Shown one piece after another: positions 1-951 of a stretch of DNA of 22,136 bases (positions are counted from its first letter, which is position 1; each line of letters opens with the position of its first letter). This stretch comes from a virus, in the IMG/VR virus record IMGVR_UViG_3300042566_000619, positions 1 through 22,136 of that record. The stretch is one strand, 5' to 3'. Position numbers and translations under genes: made by a program. The notes beneath the pieces were generated by a model. It was not told the DNA's origin and searched no databases. It worked only from the letters and a program-made list of their open reading frames with translations.

Positions 1-753
1 CACTTCGGTGTCATTGACGGGGCCCCTGATTTCATGGACGTAGAAGAAGTCAGACGGGTCAAGGCTGCGATCGACGCACGTGTTCAGACCAGCGGCATAC
101 CGGTGGGACTCATCGTCTTAGACACGTTATCTCGCGTCACCCCAGACGCAGATGAGCAATCGAAAGAGATGGGTGTGGCGCTTGATCTCGCCACGCGCCT
201 CGCTAAATCCACAGGGGCCTTGGTCCTTATCATCCACCACTCGGGCAAGAACGCTGCTCTGGGTGCGCGTGGCTGGTCGGGCATGAAGGCCGCGATGGAC
301 GTGGAGTTAGAAGTGGCCCGCGTGGATGACGCAGGGCTCGTGCGTTGTTTGACTGTGAGTAAGAACAAAGACGGTGAGGACGGTGCTCAGTTCTTTTTTG
401 CCCTCGAGGGGGTGGAGTTAGGCGTAGACAGCGACCTGAACGCGATCACCTCGGCGGTGTGCAAAGAGGTGGCGTTACCCACGCCCGAGGCAATGGGTCA
501 GAAGGCTTTGAGCGGCTTGCGCTTGAAGGTGTTTAACCACTTGTGGGGGCTTGGCCAGACGGTCGGGATTGAGCCAGAGGCCGTGATTTTGGAGATTGTG
601 GCGGGGATGCCGAAGGTGGAAGGCAAGCGCGACACGCGTAAACAAGTGGCAAAACGGGCGCTGAACGAACTGTGCGACGAGGGGTATTTCAAGGTGGTTG
701 ACGGGTGTATTGACCTGATTATTGAGGAAAAAGAGGGGGCTGGTGACTTGTAA
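1..753 (+). CDS. RepA-like hexameric helicase ATPase (AAA_25/KaiC-type), 5' partial
   Basis: The reading frame is open from the first base, so the gene begins outside the window and its Walker A region is missing; the ATG at 34 is probably internal. What remains shows a Walker B-like strand (GLIVLDT, about codons 36-42), a following strand ending in LIIHHSGK (about codons 74-83), and GARGWSG, all typical of RSF1010 RepA-like and phage AAA_25 ATPases. The C-terminal 80 residues look like a winged-helix domain (RKQVAKRALNELCDEGYF). Family members are ring helicases or helicase-like ATPases of plasmid and phage replication. The gene ends inside a palindrome that opens a repeat-rich non-coding region, which fits a replication locus. 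A recombination or DNA-repair ATPase of the same fold is the main alternative. Confidence 0.8.
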   Translation, partial: HFGVIDGAPDFMDVEEVRRVKAAIDARVQTSGIPVGLIVLDTLSRVTPDADEQSKEMGVALDLATRLAKSTGALVLIIHHSGKNAALGARGWSGMKAAMDVELEVARVDDAGLVRCLTVSKNKDGEDGAQFFFALEGVELGVDSDLNAITSAVCKEVALPTPEAMGQKALSGLRLKVFNHLWGLGQTVGIEPEAVILEIVAGMPKVEGKRDTRKQVAKRALNELCDEGYFKVVDGCIDLIIEEKEGAGDL

Positions 754-764
754 AAAATTACAAG
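747..764. repeat. 18-bp palindrome, copy 1
   Basis: CTTGTAA and TTACAAG flank an A-run (cttgtaaaaaattacaag). The palindrome includes the last codons of the helicase gene and recurs with one base changed at 934-951. It could be an operator, or a small hairpin at the end of the helicase message, although no U-tract follows. Confidence 0.75.
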
Positions 765-770
765 TTGAGG

Positions 771-922
771 TGCAACATTGCAACATTTGCTCATGTTGCA
801 CTAAATGTTGCACTTTGTTGCAAAGTGCCCATAACCCATTGATTTGCAACATAAAAACGGTGGGGGGTTTTATACCCCCCCCGTTATGTTGCACATCGGA
901 TGGGAGGCAATGTTGCGTTGCA
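771..922. repeat. TGTTGCA/TGCAACA heptamer array (iteron-like)
   Basis: Seven exact copies of the heptamer occur in about 120 bp: TGCAACA at 771, 779 and 845, and TGTTGCA at 794, 806, 816 and 887. A near-copy, TGTTGCG, lies at 910. Both orientations are present, and two copies form the outer arms of the hairpin at 846-892. No convincing gene overlaps them. Repeats like these beside a RepA-like helicase gene suggest initiator or repressor binding sites; the role is inferred. Confidence 0.7.
846..892. terminator. Long bulged hairpin between convergent genes
   Basis: The arms GCAACATAA and TTATGTTGC pair over 9 bp. Inside them CGG, a bulged T and six G pair with eight C and a G, around the loop TTTTATA. 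It lies between the rightward helicase gene and the leftward 89-aa gene, so it could end or protect both messages. It lacks a clean U-tract on either side and is therefore not a textbook intrinsic terminator. It may instead be part of an origin, since its outer arms carry the heptamer repeat. Confidence 0.5.
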
Positions 923-933
923 TGAGTGAGTGT

Positions 934-951
934 CTTGTAAAAAAATACAAG
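934..951. repeat. 18-bp palindrome, copy 2
   Basis: cttgtaaaaaaatacaag differs from the copy at 747-764 by one base. The two copies bracket the heptamer array and the hairpin, which gives the whole 205-bp region an approximate mirror layout. Confidence 0.7.

Follow-up and report, generated by a model that had tools for sequence, protein, structure and literature searches.

The element at positions 747-951 of the window, as we call the whole 22,136-bp stretch of viral DNA analysed here, is best explained as an iteron-type replication origin of a temperate tailed phage, lying directly downstream of the gene that encodes its own initiator, the winged helix of which would read the iterons; from the sequence evidence we give this reading a probability of about 0.87. 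Computation revealed an array of repeats with its hairpin and flanking dyads, the conservation of this layout across a family of phages, the domain architecture of the initiator, its covariation with the iteron bases and the joint exchange of winged helix and iterons.

The window, a virus record of IMG/VR, is a fragment of a tailed phage; because it carries genes for terminase, portal and major head proteins, the genome is that of a phage and not of a satellite. A comparison with phage records found no DNA similarity for the window. Its positions 1-107 are, however, the last 107 bases of another IMG/VR contig, L004/L288 (12.4 kb for L288), an exact overlap. This contig encodes an integrase, an SNF2 helicase, a family-A DNA polymerase, an Enc34-type SSB, a DUF2800 protein and an S24-type repressor. 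Given the overlap, the phage of the window probably reaches about 12 kb farther upstream, thereby including integrase, PolA, SSB and S24-type repressor, and such gene content, with integrase and repressor, indicates that it is probably temperate. That the phage also encodes PolA and SSB is in line with the origin reading.

The initiator gene and the adjoining repeat region

The features of the region are listed below, with rep denoting the initiator gene.

1-753, plus strand: 3' part of the initiator gene (RepA-type helicase, AAA_25), 250 codons; the 5' part lies in L004/L288
484-750, plus strand: C-terminal winged helix, proposed iteron reader (AlphaFold2 and covariation with the iterons)
634-636, plus strand: codon of T212, recognition position X1 (T635 in L064), top of 576 columns for iteron bases 3 and 4
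646-648, plus strand: codon of V216, recognition position X2 (H639 in L064), top of 576 columns for iteron base 5
747-764, unstranded: left flanking dyad CTTGTAAAAAATTACAAG, TGT-N8-ACA, overlapping the rep stop codon
771-777, minus strand: iteron TGTTGCA (TGCAACA on plus), exact match
779-785, minus strand: iteron TGTTGCA (TGCAACA on plus), exact match
794-800, plus strand: iteron TGTTGCA, exact match
806-812, plus strand: iteron TGTTGCA, exact match
816-822, plus strand: iteron TGTTGCA, exact match
845-851, minus strand: iteron TGTTGCA (TGCAACA on plus), exact match, left arm of the hairpin
845-893, unstranded: iteron-capped hairpin with inner GC stem (DNA fold; outer pairing to about 835-904)
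887-893, plus strand: iteron TGTTGCA, exact match, right arm of the hairpin
911-922, plus strand: two degenerate iterons, TGTTGCG (911-917) and GTTGCA (917-922)
934-951, unstranded: right flanking dyad CTTGTAAAAAAATACAAG, TGT-N8-ACA (from sequence; the N8 dyad is found family-wide)

Over the portion present in the window, the initiator shares 83% identity with its relative L002, and the full-length replication protein of L002/L026 has 671 residues, in which Pfam finds PriCT_2 and AAA_25. When an AlphaFold2 model of the L026 protein (pLDDT 85.9) was compared with the PDB by Foldseek, the hits included the NrS-1 phage primase-polymerase (7rr4, E 2e-11) and RepA, the helicase of RSF1010 (1g8y, TMt 0.74; 1nlf, E 7e-11). 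According to the model, a single chain is predicted to join an NrS-1-like primase-polymerase, a PriCT_2 helix bundle, a hexameric helicase like RSF1010 RepA and a C-terminal winged helix. The last domain corresponds to the C-terminal 89 residues in the window, which AlphaFold2 also folds as a winged helix (pLDDT 84.8, H-H-H-E-E); searched alone with Foldseek, it gave weak matches (best E 0.07) to many winged-helix proteins, including Fur, LexA and MecI. The initial annotation, made from the DNA letters, had thus named the right type of helicase, but had taken its gene for the next one, when in fact it precedes the region.

Directly 3' of the rep stop codon (751-753), seven exact TGCAACA/TGTTGCA heptamers lie in both orientations within 123 bp (771-893), followed by the two near-copies, just as the initial annotation had described them. 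It had also asked whether the heptamer clusters only here: of the 12 copies in the window, the five outside the array are dispersed; dinucleotide shuffling of the window, done 200 times, gave at most 3 heptamers per 130 bp against the 7 observed; and in a 39.5-kb relative 8 of the 10 copies fall inside 171 bp. The large hairpin proposed earlier is equally real. As DNA, the 845-893 segment folds with -20.0 kcal/mol, a value that none of 200 shuffles of its inner part matched, and the whole of 754-973 as single-stranded DNA reaches -51.9 kcal/mol (z -7.7), equalled by 0 of 200 shuffles. The framing 18-mers at 747-764 and 934-951, reported as near-identical palindromes, do form a pair within a 22-bp direct repeat of 91% identity; they are interrupted palindromes rather than perfect ones, dyads with an AT-rich centre. 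The GC content is 41% in 754-973 vs 56% in the window; the flanking dyads are AT-rich, and no dedicated unwinding element was delimited in the segment.

Could the hairpin and repeats instead serve to terminate transcription, or act as an RNA element, in the rep or leftward transcript? The hairpin is strong, and its minus strand continues into TTTTT in the window and into TTTT in L002, at a point where leftward genes end, so that in these two phages it may additionally end a leftward transcript, without this being a general property. A stricter test of 51 members detected terminator-like hairpins within the array zone in just 1 case for the plus strand and in 0 for the minus strand; an Rfam search returned no match; moreover, the iterons covary with a DNA-binding helix (see below), which termination would not need. 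We therefore regard a terminator or RNA element as very improbable. The stem of the window hairpin (835-904) is G-rich in its left and C-rich in its right arm, a polarity opposite to that of most relatives, which counts against the origin reading, and the NrS-1 primase site TTTGGTTA has no match in its loop. The idea that the heptamers are repressor operators was rejected, as none lies around the repressor-rep intergenic region in L004.

Two other features of the neighbourhood deserve mention. A peptidase of M20/M28 type (PHROG 4191) is encoded at 1884-2933 on the minus strand, unexpectedly beside a replication module. At 1370-1700, near the origin region, there is a very GC-rich stretch of low complexity (CGCGCCCG plus CCCAGAG repeats), and a comparable stretch is found in L026 about 1080-1290 bp past the rep stop, with 16 CCCAGAG copies in a single orientation.

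Conservation of the layout among relatives

Profile scans yielded 114 non-redundant relatives, 109 of which have enough downstream sequence for counting arrays, here defined as five or more copies of one heptamer that occupy both orientations inside 200 bp; one profile scan of genome contigs yielded only four distant relatives. An array follows rep in 63 of the 109, vs 2 of 101 kilobases upstream of the gene, 0 of 109 kilobases inside it and 2 of 2180 shuffles. This recurrence at the equivalent place supports the origin function proposed in the initial annotation, a function that we infer. The suggested check by GC skew showed no clear turn in the window, and the curve of the 39.5-kb relative flattens a few kb past the array, but on linear fragments, and with gene direction as a confounding factor, this test is uninformative.

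The layout of inverted iterons, iteron-capped hairpin and flanking dyads is the same in the nearest relative as in the window, and is retained in many distant relatives while the iteron sequence drifts (TGCAACA, TGCACCA, TGGGACA, TGGCACG, TGCTACA, TGCCCCA, CCGACTT, ACCCTTC and others) and the stems change. Counting arrays with at least four copies, and requiring an iteron pair as the outer stem with at least 5 further pairs in the inner stem, the capped hairpin is present in 71 of 74 arrays, window included; its stem sequences vary between phages and its fold is retained. The apex loops are strand-biased, CTTTAG occurring 13 times and CTAAAG 0 times. Dyads of the form YGY-N8-RCR with an AT-rich centre number 103 in the array flanks vs 5.8 in shuffled flanks, and their spacer peaks sharply at 8, with only 8 and 4 cases for spacers of 7 and 9. 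They accompany 43 of 51 arrays and keep within roughly 100 bp of them on each side.

Such repeats and dyads are typical of operators too, which raises the question of whether the array is a control region, through which Rep or another protein regulates rep or a downstream gene, replication then starting elsewhere. Two further observations point in this direction: the N8 dyads persist downstream of rep in relatives lacking an array (22 in 30 loci), and in many relatives (L052, L054, L064, L116) a small HTH-like gene, reading like GENHPRAKLTDHEVEL, comes right after the right-hand dyad, its product being a candidate dyad-binding protein. However, the array lies 3' of rep and thus away from the rep promoter; in the window the downstream genes run toward it, with no promoter-like site found at 600-1300; and the protein that reads the iterons, judged by covariation, would be the primase-helicase itself. 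That the dyad is simply the operator of rep's own promoter was rejected, since its density is 0.30 per kb upstream of rep vs 6.5 per kb in the array flanks. A control region without origin function consequently seems unlikely to us, even if regulation and origin function are compatible with each other. Counting against the origin reading is a clade of loci resembling Caulobacter phage RW, which share the winged helix and yet show no heptamer array downstream of rep (L024, L030-L033, L037-L040, L042-L047, L055-L062).

Outside the family, a pattern scan for TGCAACATTGCAACATT retrieved mostly unrelated DNA together with phages of VapE type. Primase-helicases of the VapE/DUF5906 type often have heptamer arrays of mixed orientation just 3' of their gene (GGACACC, GTTGGGAA, AGGTTCC, ATGTTAC), as in loci L068, L070, L072, L208-L224, L025 (Curvibacter phage PCA1) and L007. 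Hence, downstream iteron arrays are not confined to RepA-type proteins.

Winged-helix residues, iteron bases and their joint exchange

The comparison of residues and bases took in about 70 related phages. Once the similarity of primase and helicase is removed, iteron similarity still follows that of the C-terminal domain (partial Mantel r=0.36, p=0.0002, 49 arrays), and the reverse partial correlations, for primase and helicase, are negative: the iteron motif tracks the winged helix only. Among 576 alignment columns, the most informative are those of T635 in L064 for iteron bases 3 and 4 and of H639 for base 5, with z-scores of 8.9, 8.9 and 10.4 for the three bases against 4.7, 4.9 and 6.0 for the runners-up. 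These positions, X1 and X2 (T212 and V216 in the window), stand in i, i+4 spacing at the beginning of the third, or recognition, helix of the winged helix. Threonine or serine at X1 accompanies 'CA' at bases 3-4 in 34 of 34 rows and other residues accompany other bases in 12 of 12 (p 2.6e-11), while His at X2, which goes with TGCACC iterons, is present in 14 of the 15 rows with C at base 5 and in 0 of the 31 with other bases (31/0/1/14, p 6e-11), both Fisher p-values being inflated by the relatedness of the rows. For a few divergent iterons, the choice of strand and register followed the best match to TGCAAC and is arguable, but it does not affect the 34 of 46 rows that belong to the TGCAAC and TGCACC classes. 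On a tree built from primase and helicase alone the traits change 10-12 times, and when only well-supported branches are considered, residues and iterons are concordant in 6 independent comparisons (tree-based p 0.03).

The two-residue rule, fixed before any new array was scored, was then applied to loci from a further scan that encode 24 replication proteins, each sharing less than 95% identity with any earlier one across its last 300 residues. It was correct in 23 of 23 cases (15 TGCAAC, 4 TGCACC, 4 neither), a test in which the eight predictions other than TGCAAC carry most weight, because TGCAAC is the commonest class, and which is not fully independent, because the new loci share ancestry with earlier ones. 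The rule is imperfect for L182, which has TGCCCC with Arg, and for L276, where the iteron CCGAACA goes with an aberrant helix (DDSRRSR) that was given no prediction.

Two pairs of phages show winged helix and iterons changing together. Between L175 and L187, the primase-helicase is 98% identical, the winged helices are 29% identical and the iterons differ; between L137 and L140, primase and helicase are 95% identical, the iterons are TGCACC vs TGCAAC and X2 is His vs Arg. Such comparisons indicate that winged helix and iterons together are a swappable cassette of specificity and origin; the winged-helix codons adjoin the array, so that a single exchange can move both. This suggests that phages switch origin type, perhaps because of competition or of attack on the iterons; conflict directed at the origin, between a phage and its satellite, appears to be the topic of a published study (PMC8263062).

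All these results bear upon the identity of the iteron reader. The initial annotation had drawn an analogy with RSF1010, and the RepA-type helicase and the iterons sustain it. RSF1010 has a distinct iteron-reading protein, RepC (PMC4234260), and small HTH proteins are encoded near the array, so a real origin with a RepC-like reader of its own has to be weighed. But two winged-helix positions come out best of all Rep columns and predicted the new loci, and the iterons change with the winged helix while the rest of Rep stays; we accordingly find a separate reader highly unlikely. That the winged helix of the cognate primase-helicase would bind the iterons is, by contrast, strongly supported by the covariation.

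From the origin reading we infer origin activity, DNA opening, the use of the hairpin as a priming site and an order of events as follows. The winged helix would bind TGCAAC iterons via its third helix, several Reps would assemble on the inverted iterons and the DNA would open, allowing the fused helicase to be loaded onto it. The iteron-capped hairpin, single-stranded once exposed, might then position the fused primase for the first primer, like the ssiA and ssiB hairpins that serve priming at the oriV of RSF1010, with phage PolA and SSB carrying out extension. The flanking N8 dyads could be sites for a second, dimeric DNA-binding protein. Most environmental phages have unmapped origins, and for the family studied here sequence alone suffices to place the likely origin; iteron specificity is predictable from two initiator residues, which makes both the recognition code and replication compatibility directly testable. 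To the broadest formulation, in which widespread and largely uncultured phages have an all-in-one initiator with a two-residue iteron code, the hairpin is the start for the fused primase, and winged helix and origin move as a cassette that defines predictable replication types, we give even odds.

Comparison with known replication systems

A search of the literature, in which few subscription journals were covered, found no description of the origin of this family. By the tests made, the system of the window works like those of the RSF1010, pRN1 and SaPI/PICI types and is a full member of none. In the iteron-related domain of geminivirus Rep, too, a few initiator residues go with the iteron sequence, but this is an unrelated rolling-circle Rep of ssDNA plant viruses, with iterons upstream of rep. 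Satellite phage P4 has an SF3-type helicase and, besides ori, a distant second site, crr. Its alpha protein, which binds short repeats, resembles the initiator of the window family in combining primase, helicase and a winged-helix origin-binding domain within a single chain, and differs in its primase of Toprim type (PMC4234260).

With RSF1010 (IncQ), the family shares a hexameric helicase of RepA fold (1g8y) and an origin with iterons plus hairpins; in that plasmid, however, RepA, RepB' and RepC are three proteins (PMC4234260), whereas the window family has a single chain, with an NrS-1-like primase. ORF904 of the Sulfolobus plasmid pRN1 and the proteins of Bordetella phages BIP-1 and BPP-1 do unite primase-polymerase, helicase and C-terminal winged helix, and a stem-loop, essential in pRN1, directly follows the gene (PMC4234260), but the helicase there is SF3 and not of RepA type. 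For BIP-1 the stem-loop is reported and no iteron-type origin (PMC4234260), and we found no array of at least five heptamers near the primase gene of BPP-1.

The Rep-ori systems of SaPI/PICI and the Cch2 of SCCmec are similar in another respect: the C-terminal domain of the initiator helicase binds iterons immediately downstream of its own gene (PMC6092414, PMC7581432). The window family likewise has its iterons directly 3' of the initiator gene, and covariation points to the C-terminal domain as their reader. These helicases differ from the RepA type; in PICIs, moreover, two iteron sets flank an AT-rich region, unlike the GC hairpin amid iterons of the window, and the portions of the same sources consulted describe no iteron-capped hairpin of this kind (PMC6092414, PMC7581432). 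Features of RSF1010, pRN1 and the SaPI/PICI and SCCmec systems are joined here in one polypeptide and one 200-bp element, to which a readable specificity rule is added.
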